DNA of 64,000 nucleotides from a bacterium EF100-94H03 bin56 (GTDB lineage Bacteria; Pseudomonadota; Alphaproteobacteria; SP197): NCBI GenBank assembly GCA_002238685.1, contig MPMV01000001.1, forward strand, positions 124,001 through 188,000. The letters are read 5' to 3'. Below, in pieces: positions 5,606 to 30,328 of the stretch. The position numbers and the translations under genes are program-made. Numbering within the stretch: the first letter of the stretch is position 1; every line of letters begins with the position of its first letter. The notes under the pieces were generated by a model. That model was not told the origin of the DNA. It made no database searches and saw only the letters and a program-made list of their open reading frames with translations.

Positions 5606-7771
5606 TCAGGAAAGCCGGCGAAGACGACTTCCATCGGGGTCGGCCATCAGGAGGTGCGGGCTTGCGGATCCGATCCGCACCTCATGGCATGCCGGGTGCG
5701 GAGCAACGGAGCCGGTGAGGAGATTGATCGAAAGAACCGGGTGACCGGACCAGGGCACATCAAGGGCTGCCGACTGGTCCACCGGCACCACCAGCACCAG
5801 CGGGTTGCCGGCTTCCCTCATCTCCAGATGTCGCCCGCCCGCAAGATCCCTGGCGGTCCCGGGCACAATTCCGTCGTCGACGATGTCGAAGGCCGCATGC
5901 ATGTGGCGCACCACGTGGTAACCGGGACGCGGGTTGCAGAGACGATCGAGAACGCCTGACCGGGGGAAGTAGCCTCGGTCGATGTCAACCAGGGTATCGG
6001 CGAACACGGTGACATCGGCAAAGGTCATTGCAGCCGCCATTGCCTCGGCAATCCGCCTGACAGTAAGGGTATCGTCCATGACGGGGCTGGCCGGACTGGT
6101 TCCGGCCATGCGCATGTGGATGTGGGCCCTGAGGCCGAGGCCGGTCGCCACGGCGCTGGCCGCTGCCACCGTTTCCCAGACCGGCATGTCGAGGGTGAGG
6201 CGGAAGACTACGCCGGCGAGCACGCCATCGAGTTCGGGCAGCCTTGCGATCGCGGCGATTTCTTCCGTGTCGCGGACGAGAAATCCCTGGTTGATCGAAT
6301 GGTAGTACTTGCCGGCTTCGGCGCGTTGCTCGTCGATCGAGCGCAGGCGCGACAGCACGAGGGGGACGCCGGCACTGGTGGCCGCAGTGGCGATGGGGCC
6401 GATGTCTCGATCGATGACATCGGGATTGATGGCAACGTCCCACGTCCGGAAGAGGTCGCGGTGGGATTTGAGGCGTTCCATCAGTTCGCCGGTGGGGGCG
6501 CCGAACGACATGAGCGTGAAGAGGTGCCCGTGCTCCGCCAGAAGGTTCATGCGTGCGACATTCGCCTCGTTTACGAGATCGCGCACCGGCACCCTCAACG
6601 GCCGCACGGCCATGTCCCACAGGGCGAGCAGTGGGTAGTCGTTGCGCACGGTCTTGCGATCAAACTCGTCGAGGCCACCGGTGGGAGGTATCTCGACGAT
6701 CTCCATCCAGTTGTGGCGCATGTCGAACCCGAATGCGGCGCGCCGGTTCTGGCGCGGATGGATGGCGGCGAGACGATGCTCCGGCCGTGTTGCCGCCGCC
6801 GCACCGACGTCGAGAGTGTTCCCCCACGTGCGCACGATCTCGACCATGTGCCCGTCTTCGTGAACATGGCAGATCGCATAGCCGAGCTTGGGCCGGTCAT
6901 TGCGTCCGAATTCGGTTTCAGCGCCAGGCGAGGCCCTCAGCATCTCGGCGTAGTCAAAGCGCACGAAGGCGGTCGACGGCAGGATGTAGCAGTCGGTCGC
7001 GTCAAGCCGGAGGTACCAGAAGTTGTGGACATGTCCGGCGATCAGGGCTTCGACCTGGTGTTGCCGGGCGAGCTCGAGGAGCCATGAGCGACCGGGTTCA
7101 CCGATGTTGTCATAGGTCTCTTCCTCGTCTGCCTCCAGAAGACAGGGCGGATAGTGACTGAACAGGAAGATGCGCCGGCCGTGGTGGCTGCGGAGATCGG
7201 CCTCCAGCCAGGAGCGCTGGCGTTCCTCGGCCTCCAGGTGCGAGTTGATGACCTGGGCGTTGATAATGACGAAGTGGCACCCCTGATGATCGAACGACGT
7301 GTACTGGTCGCCGAAATGGTGTTGCCACAGGGAAAGATGATCCTCGTTGATCCGGGCAGCAGGTGCCCAGTCGTTCGGCTTGTCACCGACATCGTGATTG
7401 CCGGGCGTGAGCCAGGCAGGGTGGCGAAGGGTATCGAACACCTCGAAGAAGCGCCGGGCCGCATCGGCATAGAGTCCGGGGATCGCCGGAACCGGGTGGA
7501 CGATGTCGCCGACGTGGACGACAAAGGCGAGGTCCCGCGCATTGAGATCCCGGATGACGTGGCGCATGCGACGGTTGGCAAGGCGCCCTGATTCGAAGGG
7601 CGAATTCGTCTCGTCCTCACCCTGATTGACGTGGGTGTCGGTGATGATGCCGAAACTGAAGAGATGTCTGCCAGGGGCAGTGGATCGATTCCGGGGCCCG
7701 GTCAAGACAGTGCTCCAGTGAAGTTGGTAACGTGACGCGCCAATCTGAGTCGTTTTTTGACCGCCGGTCAA
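5606..7771 (-). CDS. Metallophosphoesterase with a large C-terminal extension
   Basis: A 721-residue protein. Residues 38-290 form a calcineurin-type phosphoesterase with all expected metal motifs: TDTH (D45, H47), VGD (88-89), GNHD (124-127), FSH (H206) and GHVH (246-249). Such domains hydrolyse phosphomono- or diesters with two metal ions. The remaining 430 residues are not standard: a region of alternating strands and helices resembling a TIM barrel (DVAINPDVIDRDI onward) and a final beta-rich part. This extension more than doubles the usual size. No signal peptide is visible. The ATG at 7771 lacks a good ribosome-binding site, so the start is uncertain; residues 1-36 may not be translated. 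It is divergent from the Upp-like gene. Substrate unknown. Confidence 0.85.
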   Translation of the reverse strand: MTGGQKTTQIGASRYQLHWSTVLTGPRNRSTAPGRHLFSFGIITDTHVNQGEDETNSPFESGRLANRRMRHVIRDLNARDLAFVVHVGDIVHPVPAIPGLYADAARRFFEVFDTLRHPAWLTPGNHDVGDKPNDWAPAARINEDHLSLWQHHFGDQYTSFDHQGCHFVIINAQVINSHLEAEERQRSWLEADLRSHHGRRIFLFSHYPPCLLEADEEETYDNIGEPGRSWLLELARQHQVEALIAGHVHNFWYLRLDATDCYILPSTAFVRFDYAEMLRASPGAETEFGRNDRPKLGYAICHVHEDGHMVEIVRTWGNTLDVGAAAATRPEHRLAAIHPRQNRRAAFGFDMRHNWMEIVEIPPTGGLDEFDRKTVRNDYPLLALWDMAVRPLRVPVRDLVNEANVARMNLLAEHGHLFTLMSFGAPTGELMERLKSHRDLFRTWDVAINPDVIDRDIGPIATAATSAGVPLVLSRLRSIDEQRAEAGKYYHSINQGFLVRDTEEIAAIARLPELDGVLAGVVFRLTLDMPVWETVAAASAVATGLGLRAHIHMRMAGTSPASPVMDDTLTVRRIAEAMAAAMTFADVTVFADTLVDIDRGYFPRSGVLDRLCNPRPGYHVVRHMHAAFDIVDDGIVPGTARDLAGGRHLEMREAGNPLVLVVPVDQSAALDVPWSGHPVLSINLLTGSVAPHPACHEVRIGSASPHLLMADPDGSRLRRLS

Positions 7772-18410: not shown

Positions 18411-19600
18411 CGTCCGGACGCAAGCGCGGTTCATCGCTTGAGGTCTTCCGTGTCTTCTTGATGCTGGGTCTCACCTCCTTCGGGGGACCTGTGGCCCACC
18501 TTGGCTACTTTCGCGAGGCCTTTGTCGTTCGGCTTCAATGGATGAGCGACAGGGCCTATGGCGATATCGTCGCCCTGGGGCAACTCCTTCCCGGTCCCGC
18601 CTCGAGTCAGGTCGGCATGGCGATCGGGCTCTTGCGCGCCGGTTATGGCGGACTGATTGCGGCGTGGCTTGCATTCACGCTCCCGTCAGCGCTCATTCTC
18701 ATCGCGTTCGCCTTTGGCGCGGGCGAACTCGAAGCGGCTCTGGGTGCCGGCTGGATCCATGGATTGAAGGCCGCCGCGGTTGCGGTTGTCGCCCACGCGC
18801 TCATCGGCATGGCGCGCAGCCTGGCGCCGGATCGCAAGCGGGCCACGATTGCGGTCGCCGGCATGATTGGCGCCATGCTGATTCCATTCACCGCCGGGCA
18901 GCTGATGGTCATCGTCGCGGGGGGGCTTGCCGGTCTCGTCTGGTTGAGGGATGAGCCGGTACCGGATGGGGAAGGGCCGATGGAGGTTCCCGTCGGCCGG
19001 CCAACTGCCATCCTGGCCCTGCTCGTCTTCTTCTTTCTTCTGGTGGCTCTTCCGGTGGTGTCCCGCCTCGTCGGTGATGGCCCATGGCCTCTCATCGATG
19101 CGTTCTATCGCGCGGGTTCGATGGTGTTCGGCGGCGGCCATGTCGTCCTGCCCCTTCTCGAGGCCGAGGTTGTCGACACCGGCATGGTCGACCGCGAGAC
19201 CTTCCTCGCCGGATACGGCGCGGCGCAGGCGGTCCCCGGACCGTTGTTCACCTTCGCCGCCTACCTTGGCGCCGTGATGGAGACGCCACCCTCGGCGCTG
19301 GCGGCACTGATGGCGCTGGTGGCAATTTTCGTTCCCTCGGCCCTTCTCATTGTCGGCGGCCTGCACTTTCAGGGGCTCTTGCGCCGTGCGCCTCCGGCCC
19401 GGCGCGCCTTTGCCGGCGTCAACGCCGCGGTCGTGGGACTCCTTGCCGCCGTGTTCCATGACCCGATCCTCTCGGCCGGTCTCATCTCAGTCCACGCGAC
19501 CGCCATCGCAGCAGCCTCCTTCGTGGCGCTCGCGGCATGGAAGGCGCCCGCCTGGGCGGTTGTGCTGCTCGCAGGTGTCGCCGGTTTCGTCGTTCTGTGA
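18407..19600 (+). CDS. chrA: Chromate transporter, CHR family
   Basis: A 397-residue membrane protein of the two-domain CHR family, with repeated halves. Each half carries a family motif: FGGPVAHLGYFREAFV with QLLPGPASSQVG near the N-terminus, and FGGGHVVLPLLE with AVPGPLFTFAAYLG in the second half. About ten hydrophobic segments are evident. Such proteins export chromate from the cytoplasm. The ATG overlaps the hpnE stop, so it is probably expressed with the dxs-hpnD-hpnE operon, although there is no functional link to hopanoids. Chromate resistance is by family analogy. Confidence 0.9.
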   Translation: MTSGRKRGSSLEVFRVFLMLGLTSFGGPVAHLGYFREAFVVRLQWMSDRAYGDIVALGQLLPGPASSQVGMAIGLLRAGYGGLIAAWLAFTLPSALILIAFAFGAGELEAALGAGWIHGLKAAAVAVVAHALIGMARSLAPDRKRATIAVAGMIGAMLIPFTAGQLMVIVAGGLAGLVWLRDEPVPDGEGPMEVPVGRPTAILALLVFFFLLVALPVVSRLVGDGPWPLIDAFYRAGSMVFGGGHVVLPLLEAEVVDTGMVDRETFLAGYGAAQAVPGPLFTFAAYLGAVMETPPSALAALMALVAIFVPSALLIVGGLHFQGLLRRAPPARRAFAGVNAAVVGLLAAVFHDPILSAGLISVHATAIAAASFVALAAWKAPAWAVVLLAGVAGFVVL

Positions 19601-22409: not shown

Positions 22410-22643
22410 CCGACACCCTTGCGTTGCCGCGAAGTTCATGCCGGCCGAACCCGGCAGACAGATGGCGGCGTGTCGGAGGGAACCGGGGCTGCCTTGCGTG
22501 GTTCACGGGCGGGCCTGGGTCATGGTCGCAAGTTCTCCCGCATCAGCGCATACGCGCATTGAAGACAGCATGACGTTGAAGGTCTGCTATCGTAAGGTGA
22601 AGGGGAGTCGGCAGCGCCTCTGTCGGCAGAAGGGATACAGGTG

Positions 22644-23711
22644 ATGATCAAGCCGGTATCGGGAATGCCGCGCCGATCGGCACTGGCGACGGGAGCCGGT
22701 GGCGTCGTGGCAGCACTGGTGCCGTCGGCACTTCTGGCTGAAGCCGACCTGAAGTTCTTCCGCATTGCAACCGGCGGCACAGCCGGGACCTTCTATCCGG
22801 TGGGCGCACTGGTGGCCACGGTGATTTCCGGTCCACCGGGCGTGCCGGATTGCGAAGAGGATGGTGGCAGCTGTGTTCCCGGACTTCTGGCGACTGCCCT
22901 GTCGTCGGAAGGCGCTGTCGAGAACGTCGGATCGGTCGTCTCGGGCGATGTGGAATCGGGATTCTCCCAGTCGGATGTCGTCTATTGGGCCTACACCGGG
23001 ACCGGCATCTTCGCCGGCAGCGACCCGCGGCGGAAGCTGCGATTGATCGGCAGCCTCTATCCCGAGGTCATCCACATCGTCGTCAGGCGTGATGCCGGCA
23101 TCACCTCTGTTCCGGACCTGGCCGGCAAGCGGATATCACTGGATGTCGAGGGATCGGGAACGCTGGTCGCCGCGCGAATCATCCTCGATTCCTACGGTCT
23201 CAGCGACGTCGATCTCGATGTCCGCTACATCAAGCACGGCCCGGCCGTCTCCATGATGAGAGCGGATGAACTCGATGGACTCTTCGTCATTGCCGGATAT
23301 CCCGCCAATTCCGTGTTCGACCTTGTCGAGGAAGGGATCGCGGATCTCCTGCCGATACCCGCGGAACATGCGCTTGGCCTTCTCGTCGATCACCCCTTCT
23401 TTTCCCTGTCTGTCGTTCCGGAAGGGTCCTATCCCGGTCTCTCCCATGTCACCACGCTGGCGATCGGAGTTCAGTGGATCGTGACACAAGCCGCGCCCGA
23501 GGATCTGGTCTATCAGATCACGCGGGCGCTGTGGCACCCCAACAACAGGGAGGAACTTGCCTCCGGGCATCCCGCGGCGCGCCAGATGAAACTCTCCAAT
23601 GCACTGCTTGGCGCCGCCGTGCCGTTGCATCCCGGCGCGGCCGCCTTCTACATCGAAGCCGGACTCGATCTTTCGGATGTCGCGGTCGCGGAATCTCTTC
23701 CCGTTCAGTAG
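22644..23711 (+). CDS. TAXI-family TRAP transporter binding protein
   Basis: A 355-residue periplasmic binding protein of the TAXI type. The N-terminus has a twin-arginine-like signal (PRRSALATGAGGVVAALVP) ending near ALLAEA. The mature start KFFRIATGGTAGTFYPVGA is the family hallmark, and GKRISLDVEGSGT with the later IPAEHALGL also fit. TAXI proteins deliver solutes, often glutamate or other carboxylates, to TRAP permeases with fused membrane subunits. No TRAP permease gene is next to it, so it is an orphan here. The stop overlaps the ghrA stop on the other strand by 7 bases. Confidence 0.9.
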   Translation: MIKPVSGMPRRSALATGAGGVVAALVPSALLAEADLKFFRIATGGTAGTFYPVGALVATVISGPPGVPDCEEDGGSCVPGLLATALSSEGAVENVGSVVSGDVESGFSQSDVVYWAYTGTGIFAGSDPRRKLRLIGSLYPEVIHIVVRRDAGITSVPDLAGKRISLDVEGSGTLVAARIILDSYGLSDVDLDVRYIKHGPAVSMMRADELDGLFVIAGYPANSVFDLVEEGIADLLPIPAEHALGLLVDHPFFSLSVVPEGSYPGLSHVTTLAIGVQWIVTQAAPEDLVYQITRALWHPNNREELASGHPAARQMKLSNALLGAAVPLHPGAAAFYIEAGLDLSDVAVAESLPVQ

Positions 23712-24507
23712 CCGCGGTCGAGGTCCACGATATTGATGAAGGGCTCGCCGGTGTGCAGCCGCCGGCAGTTCTCGGCAATCTGGGGAGCGCTGGTTTCCGG
23801 CACTGTCAGGGCCGCGATGTGCGGAAAGGTCAGGATCTTCGGGTGATACCAGAACGGGTGGTCGTCAGGCATGGGTTCCTGGCGCTGGACATCGAGCGCG
23901 GCCCCGGCGAGACGGCCATCATCGATCGCCCGAACGAGGTCCTCTTCCACGACATGGCCACCGCGTGCCGCGTTGATGAGAAAGGCACCCTTCTTCATCC
24001 AGGACATGGTGCGGGCATTCAGGATGCCTTCGGTTTCCCTGGTGAGCGGCAGCAGGCAGATCACGACGTCACAGGGGGCAAGAAATCTCTCAAGGGCCTC
24101 AAGCCCCGACTGGCAGGTCACGCCATCGATGTGACGCGGTGACCTGCTCCATCCCATGACCTGGTAGCCCATGCCCCCGATGACGCGGGCACAGTCGCCG
24201 CCCAGCACACCGAGTCCCAGGATGCCCACCGTGACATCACGCGGCAGCGGAACCTCGAGCTCCTCGTAGCGCCGCTCCCGGTGGAGCCGGCGGTAGTCTT
24301 CCATCCGGCGCAGGTGGTCGAGCATCACCATCAGGCACCAGCAGGTCATCTGCGCGGTCATGGCTGGATCCACAATGCGTGTGAGCACCACGCCGTCGGG
24401 AACGAGATGACGGAACGCCATGACATGGTCGACGCCGGCACCAAGGGACATGACGAGCCGGAGGCGGGGAAAGCGCGCCAGATCGTCAAGAGGGTGGTTC
24501 CAGACCA

Positions 24508-24552
24508 GCGCCGCATCGATGTCCTCGGACGAGCCGCTGTCAGGGTGAATGC
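24508..24552. repeat. Short direct repeat in ghrA, unit 1
   Basis: 45 bases repeated at 24587-24631 (offset 79, no gaps, 4 mismatches by hand count). It encodes the HPDSGSSEDIDAA segment of the intact reading. Confidence 0.85.
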
Positions 24553-24631
24553 CGCCCCAGACGGAAAGGGGGGGGGTCCAAGCCCGGCGCCGCATCGTTG
24601 CCCTGGGAGGAGCCGCTGTCAGGGTGAATGC
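24553..24631. repeat. 79-bp insertion with direct-repeat unit 2 and nine-G tract
   Basis: Contains the second repeat unit (24587-24631) and a run of nine Gs at 24568-24576. The net 79 bases shift the ghrA frame by one; with eight Gs the frame would be open. Confidence 0.8.
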
Positions 24632-24748
24632 GAAAGTCGAGTCCGGGCGCATGGGGCGCGAGGCATGCCTGCCACACCGGACCGTCGCTGCGTCCGCTCA
24701 TGTAGAGAAGTGCCATTGTGCTTCCTCCGGGAACTGGTCGACCATGGA

Positions 24749-26367
<1,619 letters not shown>

Positions 26368-26371
<4 letters not shown>

Positions 26372-27411
26372 GACGGCAGCTTCCGGGGATCGAAGGCATC
26401 GCGTACGGCTTCTCCGGTGAAGGTGAGGAGAGAGAGCATCAGTGCGACGACGGCAAATCCCGTCAGCCCGAGCCACGGCGCCTGAAGGTTGTTGCGTCCC
26501 TGGTTCAGCAGCTCTCCAAGCGAAGGCGAGCCCGGCGGCAGGCCGAATCCGAGAAAGTCGAGAGCGGTGAGTGTGGTGATCGAACCATTGAGGATGAAGG
26601 GCAGGAAGGTCAGGGTCGACACCATGGCATTGGGCAGCACATGGCGAACCATGATGACGCTGTCCGCCACCCCCAGTGCCCGCGCCGCCTTGACGTAGTC
26701 GAAGTTTCTGGTGCGCAGGAATTCCGCCCGTACCAGGCCCACGAGAGCTGTCCATGAGAACAGGACCAGGAGACCAAGAAGGGTCCAGAATCCAGGAACG
26801 ATGACGCTCGCCAGAATGATGAGGATGTAGAGCACCGGTATGCCGCCCCATACCTCGAGGGCGCGTTGCGCCAGAAGGTCGATCCAGCCTCCGTAGTAGC
26901 CTTGAACGGCACCGGCGGCGATGCCGATGACGGACGAAACGAGCGTCAGGGCGAGACCGAAGAGGACCGAGAGACGGAAGGCGTAGATGACCCGTGCCGC
27001 GACGTCGCGGCCCTGATCGTCCGTTCCCAGCCAGTTTTCGGTTGTCGGAGAGGAGGGCGCCGGACTTGGAAGGTCGTAGTTGATGGTGCGGTAGTCGTAG
27101 GCGATGAGCGGCCAGACGATCCACCCGCCTCCAGCATGGATGAGATCCTTGACGAAGGGATCGCGATAGTCTGCCTCCGTCTCGAAGTCGCCACCGAAGG
27201 CCGTTTCGGGATAGACCGTCAGCACTGGCACGTGGAGAGCACCGTCAAACCAGACCGCCAGCGGCCGGTCATTGGCAATCAACTCTGCCGGCAGTGTAAA
27301 GGCGAAAAGGATGAGGAAGATGTGGAACGACCAGTAGCCGCGCTTGTTGGCCCGGAAGTTGGCTACGCGCCGCCGCGTGATGGGATCCAGCCTGTGGCTG
27401 CTGAACCTCAT
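26368..27411 (-). CDS. yejE: Peptide ABC transporter permease (YejE type)
   Basis: A 347-residue inner-membrane permease. It has an N-terminal helix after RGYWSFHIFLILFAFTLP, a periplasmic loop with TENWLGTDDQGRDVAARVIYAFR typical of DppC/YejE permeases, and the cytoplasmic EAA-type loop EFLRTRNFDYVKAARALGV near residue 230. About six membrane helices are expected. The ATG overlaps the yejB stop by 4 bases and its stop overlaps the yejF start, so the three are translated together. Confidence 0.95.
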
Positions 27412-28490
27412 CCGACATCCCGGCTTTCGAAGTCGATGCGCGGGTCGACGATGACGTACATCAGGTCGCCGACGAGATTCATGAGGAGACCCAAGAGGGT
27501 GAATATGTAGAGAGTCGCGAACATGACCGGATAGTCCCGGTCAATGGCCGCCTCGTAGCCGAGCAGGCCGAGGCCGTCGAGCGAGAAGATGATCTCGATG
27601 AGAAGTGCGCCCGTGAAGAGGATGCCGATGATGGCCCCGGGAAAGCCGGCAATGATGATCAGCATGCCGTTGCGGAACACATGGCCGTAAAGGACTCGCC
27701 GCTCGCTCAGCCCCTTGGCGCGTGCTGTCGTGACGTATTGACTCCGGATCTGGTCGATGAAGGAGTTCTTGGTGAGCATTGTCAGTGTGGCGAAGCTGCC
27801 GATGATAAGGGCCGTCAGGGGCAGTGCCAGGTGCCAGAAGTAGTCCGCTATCTGGCCCAGGGTGCTCATGTTCTCGAAACCCGGGGAAACGAGACCGCGC
27901 AGCGGAAAGAGCTTCCAGTAGGAGCCACCGGCGAACAGCACCACGAGAAGGATCGCGAACAGGAAACCCGGGATGGCGTATCCCAGGACAATGGTGCCGC
28001 TTGTCCACACGTCGAAGGCGCTGCCGTCACGCCTCGCCTTGGCGATTCCCAGAGGGATGGAGACGATGTAGACGACAAGCGTCGTCCAGAGACCCAGGGA
28101 AACAGAGACGGGCATCTTCTCGACAATGAGATCGACGACGCGCCGGCTCCGGAAGGCGCTCTCCCCGAAGTCGAAGGTAAGATAGTTCTCCATCATCAAC
28201 AGGAAACGTTCGACCGGCGGCTTGTCGAGGCCATACATCCTTTCGAGTTTCTCGACGAAACCGTCCGGCAGTCCCTGGGCCCCTCGGTAGAGCGATTCAC
28301 CTGCGGTCTGGACGTCACTGCCGGAGCCTGCGACCCTTGCCGTGGCGCCGACAGCCGTGCCTTCGAGTTCGGCGAGGATACGTTCGACAGGCCCGCCCGG
28401 CACGAACTGCACGATGACGAAGTTGACCATCATGATGGCCAACAGCGTCGGGGCTATGAACAGCAGGCGCCGTACAATGTAGGCGAACAT
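27408..28490 (-). CDS. yejB: Peptide ABC transporter permease (YejB type)
   Basis: A 360-residue permease starting MFAYIVRRLLFIAPTLLAI, the normal N-terminus of DppB/YejB proteins. A long periplasmic loop (about residues 35-140) precedes five further helices; the EAA loop is SQYVTTARAKGLSERRVL near residue 250. The start at 28490 is chosen because the longer frame upstream is antisense-like and would overlap yejA. yejA ends 14 bases before this start. Confidence 0.95.
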   Translation of the reverse strand: MFAYIVRRLLFIAPTLLAIMMVNFVIVQFVPGGPVERILAELEGTAVGATARVAGSGSDVQTAGESLYRGAQGLPDGFVEKLERMYGLDKPPVERFLLMMENYLTFDFGESAFRSRRVVDLIVEKMPVSVSLGLWTTLVVYIVSIPLGIAKARRDGSAFDVWTSGTIVLGYAIPGFLFAILLVVLFAGGSYWKLFPLRGLVSPGFENMSTLGQIADYFWHLALPLTALIIGSFATLTMLTKNSFIDQIRSQYVTTARAKGLSERRVLYGHVFRNGMLIIIAGFPGAIIGILFTGALLIEIIFSLDGLGLLGYEAAIDRDYPVMFATLYIFTLLGLLMNLVGDLMYVIVDPRIDFESRDVG

Positions 28491-28504
28491 GACGCTGCCT
28501 TCGC

Positions 28505-30328
28505 TCAGTCGTTCTGCGCTCCGGTCCGCGCCTTGAGGGCCGCATCCCTCCCGGCATCGATCCACCAGGTGTCGAGAACGATGCCGTCGTCGGATACGAT
28601 GTCGGGTTGCCCGAACCTGTCCCACCAGGCCACCCGGTCGTACGTGATGTGCCAGTTGGGAATGACATAGTGGCCGTGGCGCAGCACCCGGTCGAGAACC
28701 CGCGCTGCCGTCACGAGTTCCGCACGGGTGCCGGCATAGATGAGCTCCTCGATGAGGGCATCGATCGCCGGACTCCTGATGCCCGCAAGGTTGTCGCTCC
28801 CGGGGATGTCGGCGGATGCCGAGCCCCAGTAGTTTCTCTGTTCATTGCCCGGTGAGCGCGACTGGCCAAACCCGGTCACCACCATGTCGAAGTTGAAGTT
28901 GTCGAGGCGTTCCTTGTACTGGGCGGCATCGATGGACCGGATCTCCAGGCGGGCTCCGAGGCGTTCGAGCTGGGCACGCAACGGCTGGAGAATGCGTTCG
29001 AATGCGGGCTGGACCATGAGGAACTCGATTTCCATGGGTGTGCCGGCGGGACCGGTCAACACGCCGTCCTCAACCGTCCACCCAGCCTCCGCGAGCAGCG
29101 CCTTTGCCTTGCGCAGATTGGTTCTGTTGTTGCCCGACCCGTCGGTGACCGGCGGTACGGCGACCTCGCCGAAGACGTCGTCCGGAAGGTCCTCGCCAAG
29201 GCGTTCCAGCAGGGCGCGTTCGGCATCATCCGGGGCGCCGCTGGCAGCAAGCTCCGAATTGGAAAAATAGCTCACCGACCGCACATACTGACCATAGAAG
29301 AGATTCTGGTTGGCCCATTCGAAATCGAAGGCCAAAGCGAGTGCCTGGCGGACCCTCGGATCGGCGAACTTCTCGCGGCGAAGGTTGAAGACGAACCCCT
29401 GCATGCCCTGGGGACGGCTGTGTGCGACCTTCTCGACGATGACCAGACCGTCGTCGAAGTTGCTGCCGCTGTAGGACGTTGCCCAGCGCTTGGAGTTGTT
29501 CTCCGAACGGAAGTCGTACTCGTTCGCCTTGAAGGCTTCCATGGCGATGTCGAGATCGAGATACTCGTCGTAACGAATCCGGTCGAAGTTGTAGAAGCCG
29601 GCGTTGACCGGAAGATCGGCCCCCCAGTAACTCTCATCGCGCTCGTAGGTGATGGAGCGACCCGGGTTGACATCGACGACCCTGTAGGGTCCGCTCCCCA
29701 TGGGGAATTCGAGGCTGGCTTCCTCGAAATCCCGTCCCTCGTACCAGTGGCGCGGCAGCACCGGAAGTTCACCCAGAATCAGCGGCAGTTCGACATTCCC
29801 TGGTCCATCGAACGTGAAGCGAACCCAGCCGCCGTCCTCCACGACCGCTTCGGTGACGTTGGCATAGTAGGCAGCATAGAGCGGCAGACCGCTCTCGCGC
29901 AGGGTTTCGAGACTCCAGACCACATCGTCCGCCGTGACCGATGTGCCATCGTGCCAGCGTGCTTCGGGGCGCAGGTGGAAAGCGACCCAGGAGTGGTCCT
30001 GCGGAAGCCGCACGCGGTCGGCCAGCAGTCCGTAGGCCGCGGTCGGCTCGTCATTCGAGGCTTTCAGCAGGGTGTCGTAGAGCCTTGAGAGACCGGCCGC
30101 CTTGCGCCCCCTGAGGCTGTAGGCGTTGAGGGTGTCGAAGCCGCCGAAGCCGAAGAAGCGAGCCTCGCCGCCCTTTGGTGCGTCAGGATTGACGTAGTCG
30201 AAGTGACGGAAGGTCTCGTCGTACTTGAGGTCGCCGTACCGCGAGATTCCGTGGGTTTCCCGAACCGTTTCGGCCAGCGCGGACCCCACTGTCAGCACCA
30301 GGACAGCAAGAATGGACACGAGACGCAT
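28505..30328 (-). CDS. yejA: Peptide ABC transporter binding protein (YejA type)
   Basis: A 607-residue family 5 extracellular solute-binding protein with a standard signal peptide (MRLVSILAVLVLTVGSALAET). Typical blocks are FRHFDYVNPDAPKGGE and RFFGFGGFDTLNAYSLRG near the N-terminus, the SBP5 signature around WHDGTSVTADDVVWSLETL, and DPRVRQALALAFDFEW. YejA in enterobacteria binds oligopeptides such as microcin C. It is the first gene of yejABEF-ghrA. The frame upstream of 30328 to 30874 is not protein-like and is rejected. Confidence 0.95.
   Translation of the reverse strand: MRLVSILAVLVLTVGSALAETVRETHGISRYGDLKYDETFRHFDYVNPDAPKGGEARFFGFGGFDTLNAYSLRGRKAAGLSRLYDTLLKASNDEPTAAYGLLADRVRLPQDHSWVAFHLRPEARWHDGTSVTADDVVWSLETLRESGLPLYAAYYANVTEAVVEDGGWVRFTFDGPGNVELPLILGELPVLPRHWYEGRDFEEASLEFPMGSGPYRVVDVNPGRSITYERDESYWGADLPVNAGFYNFDRIRYDEYLDLDIAMEAFKANEYDFRSENNSKRWATSYSGSNFDDGLVIVEKVAHSRPQGMQGFVFNLRREKFADPRVRQALALAFDFEWANQNLFYGQYVRSVSYFSNSELAASGAPDDAERALLERLGEDLPDDVFGEVAVPPVTDGSGNNRTNLRKAKALLAEAGWTVEDGVLTGPAGTPMEIEFLMVQPAFERILQPLRAQLERLGARLEIRSIDAAQYKERLDNFNFDMVVTGFGQSRSPGNEQRNYWGSASADIPGSDNLAGIRSPAIDALIEELIYAGTRAELVTAARVLDRVLRHGHYVIPNWHITYDRVAWWDRFGQPDIVSDDGIVLDTWWIDAGRDAALKARTGAQND

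Follow-up and report, generated by a model that had tools for sequence, protein, structure and literature searches.

Dephasing in Illumina sequencing has been described as the lagging of some of the fragments, and a correction is routinely applied for the call of base i-1 or i+1 in cycle i (PMC3622629). The rise of errors toward read ends has been assumed to result from accumulated phasing and pre-phasing (PMC4381044). GGC appears as an error context in both of these reports, and both note that errors do not reliably follow it. At the assembly level, PMC7111523 describes scaffolds whose overlapping flanks remain as duplicate sequence with Ns between the copies, and PMC2884544 describes low-quality overhangs at contig ends, derived from capillary reads, in the context of gap closing. 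Homotype false duplications arising from sequence errors have been reported for vertebrate assemblies, with totals in the megabase range (PMC9516828). Here, we compare with these cases a 79-nt tandem repeat that apparently shifts the reading frame of a bacterial dehydrogenase gene.

The dehydrogenase gene and its 79-nt repeat

The window, which is the whole 64-kb stretch of DNA analyzed here, corresponds to positions 124001-188000 of contig C48 in a genome assembly of 4.53 Mb and 102 contigs, listed with a completeness of 98.45% and a contamination of 4.2%. The gene matched PF02826 (D-2-hydroxyacid dehydrogenase, NAD-binding domain) with 160.3 bits, above the gathering score of 25.1, and its start position was set by comparison with the frame start in the relative G007. 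A preliminary description had named the gene ghrA. The closest NCBIfam model for the frame was indeed GhrA (NF012013), but the score of 220.3 bits was below the curated cut-off of 403 bits, as was that of the open gene of G007 (234.5 bits), and the safe name is therefore "GhrA-like". The features of the locus are as follows.

23705-24716, minus strand: GhrA-like D-2-hydroxyacid dehydrogenase gene (PF02826), frame apparently shifted by copy B
24474-24552, minus strand: copy A, the putatively genuine 79-nt dehydrogenase segment, with identity to G007, G001, and G006 above that of copy B
24553-24631, minus strand: copy B, the putatively false, error-laden second copy, missing in three close relatives
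24568-24576, plus strand: nine-G run within copy B, with lag-type changes at 24568, 24570, and 24574
24552/24553, no strand: putative false junction of copies A and B; the flanks plus one copy are contiguous in G007, G001, and G006

Copies A and B adjoin head to tail at an offset of 79 and are identical without gaps at 63 of 79 bases. All 16 differences lie within the 57 positions of copy B nearest to the junction, and the last 22 positions are identical. The preliminary description had recorded a 45-bp segment repeated at offset 79 with 4 differences; this was correct, and the segment proved to be the cleaner part of the longer repeat, whose final 45 positions contain four of the 16 differences. 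The repeat is far above chance: its best-duplicate score was 48.6, whereas three samples of random 612-bp pieces, 40 in each, had median scores between 12.1 and 12.6. Tandem Repeats Finder, at a score of 40, did not include the 79-bp repeat in its output.

The nine Gs noted earlier among the inserted bases lie at 24568-24576, inside copy B, and form the only run of G or C longer than seven in the 64-kb window. The second-longest G run in the window consists of seven Gs at 18919-18925; a direct repeat around that run was looked for and none was found. Copy B is traversed in different frames by two open frames, that from the start side of the gene (24540-24782, 80 aa) and that from the opposite side (23705-24652, 315 aa). 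From this, and because 79 is not divisible by three, the earlier calculation that one G fewer would re-open the frame holds.

The neighboring genes were also annotated. The minus-strand cluster at 24749-28625 encodes two ABC-transporter ATPase domains, an oligopeptide-type C-terminal match, and two permeases, and looks like an ordinary peptide-type importer. A gene of the NMT1-like family (PF16868, 228.7 bits) lies at 22641-23711 on the plus strand.

Single copy in relatives and neighbor-base pattern of the differences

The preliminary description had proposed a comparison of the gene with those of relatives. In three close relatives of the same genus (G007, G001, and G006; 89-90% identical), a single copy joined the left flank directly to the right flank, and this orthologous copy had no nine-G run in any of the three. 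The gene was open over its full length in G007 and G001 (310 and 318 aa) and truncated by the contig end in G006. Alignment ends were also compatible with a single copy in G005, G009, and G014, which are more distant.

We then compared each copy with the relatives. Copy A was identical to G007, G001, and G006 at 70, 71, and 73 of 79 positions, and copy B at 56, 55, and 57. Copy A carried the base of all three relatives at 15 of the 16 differing sites; copy B matched any of them at one. Five bases were common to copies A and B and present in none of the three relatives; copy B therefore derives from copy A of its own genome after the split, with the excess change lying on copy B. Copy B might instead be chimeric, stemming from the corresponding gene of a different organism or strain of the sample; a divergence of approximately 20% would suit a separate species, and contamination is listed for the genome. 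This origin was rejected because copy B scored under copy A against all eight relatives compared and because of the five bases private to the two copies; only two of the 16 changes, moreover, fall on third codon positions. We regard it as extremely unlikely.

The differences themselves followed a simple rule. At 15 of 16 differences, the letter in copy B was the next base of copy A on the plus strand, and at only three was it the previous plus-strand base; the sixteenth difference (24486/24565) corresponded to the +2 neighbor rather than the +1 neighbor. The chance of at least 15 next-base matches was 8e-7 under uniform substitution and 1e-5 with base weights like those of copy B. Within the first 57 positions, all 16 differences fell among the 46 sites whose next base differs, and none fell at the 11 sites with the same next base, at which a lag would be invisible. 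Counted from the clean end of copy B, the initial 22 bases were error-free, and the differences numbered one, six, and nine per third toward the junction. When the segment is read on the minus strand, the next plus-strand base is that of the previous cycle, so that each lag error amounts to a call of the previous base, with errors rising along the read. As far as can be judged from the letters, next-base substitution is the signature of Illumina phasing. A GGC directly precedes the first error in the read direction, a context that would be consistent with phasing and is no proof of it. The nine-G run itself was produced by three lag-type changes (24568, 24570, and 24574).

The differences were distributed over codon positions one, two, and three as 4, 10, and 2, a distribution unlike that of a diverged coding homologue. 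Adenine-specific change, the mark of diversity-generating retroelements, was considered and rejected: the changed bases of copy A comprised five T, five C, five A, and one G.

Two explanations that take copy B as real DNA were weighed against this pattern. Recent gene decay would consist of a true 79-bp tandem duplication in the strain followed by substitutions. In its favor, the assembled gene has a broken frame, and head-to-tail duplication is a common mutation. However, copy B carries 16 changes in 79 positions, whereas copy A differs from its close relatives by only 6 to 9 and shares private bases with copy B, which would require copy B to have evolved far more rapidly than the gene itself since the species split. 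The changes also track the neighboring base, and degraded duplicates occur at many loci (see below); decay is thus very improbable. In dislocation mutagenesis, a polymerase inserts the neighboring template base, and a real duplicate could have been altered by repeated events of this kind at many loci of the organism; we consider this extremely improbable as well.

Degraded duplicates elsewhere in the assembly

A scan of 652 kb of the assembly, the window included, detected 18 adjacent degraded duplicates, ten of which, including the 79-bp one, had a lag fraction of at least 0.55. For control, 725 kb from G008, G005, and G007 were scanned in the same way and yielded 32, of which one reached this fraction; 30 of these 32 came from G008, and 31 had offsets that were multiples of three, as expected for repeats inside proteins. 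Without the filter, lag outnumbered lead at 14 of the 18 duplicates in this genome (one tie) versus 14 of 32 in the relatives (three ties). When the ten lag-type duplicates were pooled, 101 of 140 differences were lag-type and 45 lead-type, figures that are biased because all ten were chosen by the lag filter.

The lag pattern and the gradient were weaker at several of these duplicates than at the 79-bp one. The duplicate at offset 61 had nine lag-type and nine lead-type differences of 13, and the differences per third were 7, 6, and 7 at offset 68 and 5, 2, and 2 at one site of offset 54. The wrong copy was the left one in eight and the right one in two of the ten lag-type duplicates, a mixture that fits tips of either neighboring piece.

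Four further duplicates were searched in G007, G001, G006, G005, and G008. The 109-bp duplicate corresponded to an absence of exactly 109 bp in all five relatives. For the 61-bp duplicate, exactly 61 bp were absent in G007 and G006, the only two of five that aligned across the site, and for the 54-bp duplicate exactly 54 bp were absent in G007, G001, and G006 (three of five aligning across). The 68-bp duplicate showed an absence of exactly 68 bp in G001 and G007, the two of five that matched, under a permissive alignment with other gaps upstream; in a first, poor alignment, the outer anchors had given net differences of approximately 10 and 6, not 68. Extra copies missing in close relatives thus recur within this assembly.

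Next, we focused on nine-G runs, for which 20 other sites were taken from at least 25 clusters outside C48, with sites on C43, C66, C67 (two), and C76 left out. A duplicate scoring at least 25 was found at 15 of 20 sites in this genome and at 5 of 20 nine-G sites of five relatives; the remaining five sites here had no duplicate at a score of 25. When the copies were also required to be adjacent, the counts were 12 of 20 versus 5 of 20, and with G and C runs masked in addition, 11 of 20 versus 1 of 20. Among random pieces, duplicates at this score were present in 2 of 40 for this genome, 0 of 40 for G007, and 1 of 40 for G005; the resulting contrast of 15/20 with 3/120 is tilted toward the artefact reading, as the random pieces contained no G runs and adjacency was not required, and the stricter contrast is that of 11/20 with 1/20. 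Lag exceeded lead in 13 of the 15 duplicate-bearing sites and was tied in two. Among the 15, L127 (offset 33, 63 mismatches) probably represents low-complexity sequence rather than such a duplicate, and it was dropped under the adjacency rule.

These results bear on the suggestion that the nine-G run is a contingency switch, in which slippage would vary the length of the run and turn the enzyme on and off. The run does lie within overlapping open frames. It sits, however, in the extra copy, and the orthologous single copies of the three close relatives lack it; of the 20 other nine-G sites of the assembly, 15 stand beside degraded duplicates, or 11 after masking and with adjacent copies. A literature search on poly-G phase variation in sponge-symbiont Alphaproteobacteria found no paper that combined three of its four terms. 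A switch at this locus is vanishingly unlikely.

Nine-G runs alone were rejected as a marker of the artefact, since they were frequent in G007 and G008 too. Overlapping matches on the forward and reverse strands numbered 102 and 72 in G007, 55 and 8 in G008, and 100 and 33 in this genome; G001, G005, and G006 had 5, 3, and 1 matches in all.

Several further observations were made outside the window. On C48, adjacent degraded duplicates were also found at contig coordinates 6884, 11031, 101260, 226891, and 235898, all except that at 6884 passing the lag filter, and one of them contains a 23-G run (C48:101296); they are likely of the same artefact kind. Duplicates on other contigs of the assembly include those at C8:34583 and C52:29258. 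In G007, a degraded adjacent duplicate of offset 146 (L141; C1:39341-39951) lies beside an 11-base run, and 22 of its 41 differences were lag-like; this may be an instance of the artefact in another assembly. Clustered runs of at least eight G or C, several within approximately 200 bp, were also observed at several places in G007 (e.g., C16:37913-38020 and C51:110353-110568; L143 and L147).

Proposed origin of the second copy

The single copy in relatives, the derivation of copy B from copy A of its own genome, the lag pattern with its increase toward the junction, and the recurrence of degraded duplicates together argue that copy B is almost certainly a sequencing-plus-assembly artefact rather than gene biology. 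The weight of this argument is carried by the duplicate, by the lag pattern, and by the comparison with relatives, and not by the G run. Among the three possibilities raised in the preliminary description, an assembly or sequencing error was strongly supported, whereas gene decay and a slippage switch were unsupported; copy B, the only lesion seen in the gene, bears the marks of the artefact.

The artefact may have arisen as follows. Minus-strand reads over the gene would have lost phase, with a fraction of each cluster running one cycle behind, resulting in many calls of the previous base. The error-filled stretch would then have become the tip of one assembled piece, while a neighboring piece carried the same 79 nt correctly. 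With approximately 20% of the tip wrong, the overlap would have gone unrecognized, and the two pieces would have been set end to end, giving the segment twice and breaking the frame. The platform was presumably Illumina. The window contains no N bases, from which we infer a gap-filling or concatenating step; the exact joining step would have been scaffolding or gap filling.

This reading removes a false call of a pseudogene or of phase variation. It also shows that such an artefact can be recognized from the assembled sequence alone when an adjacent degraded duplicate carries lag-type substitutions, and that other apparent frameshifts and G runs of the same assembly merit equal suspicion.

The 79-nt repeat resembles the Illumina phasing and sequence-specific errors described in PMC3622629 and PMC4381044 in its previous-base calls and in errors that grow along the read; unlike the cases treated there, the errors appear here unfiltered and turned into assembled consensus. 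As in the local assembly error of PMC7111523, flanking pieces would overlap without being merged, so that the overlap is present twice, but the window has no N and one of the copies is error-laden. The blocking of a correct join by low-quality read ends in the consensus is a feature of the cases in PMC2884544 as well, although the low-quality ends described there are those of capillary reads. Finally, sequence errors make one locus look double here as in the homotype false duplications of PMC9516828, which were described in vertebrate assemblies and amount to megabases in total, in contrast to the present bacterial case.
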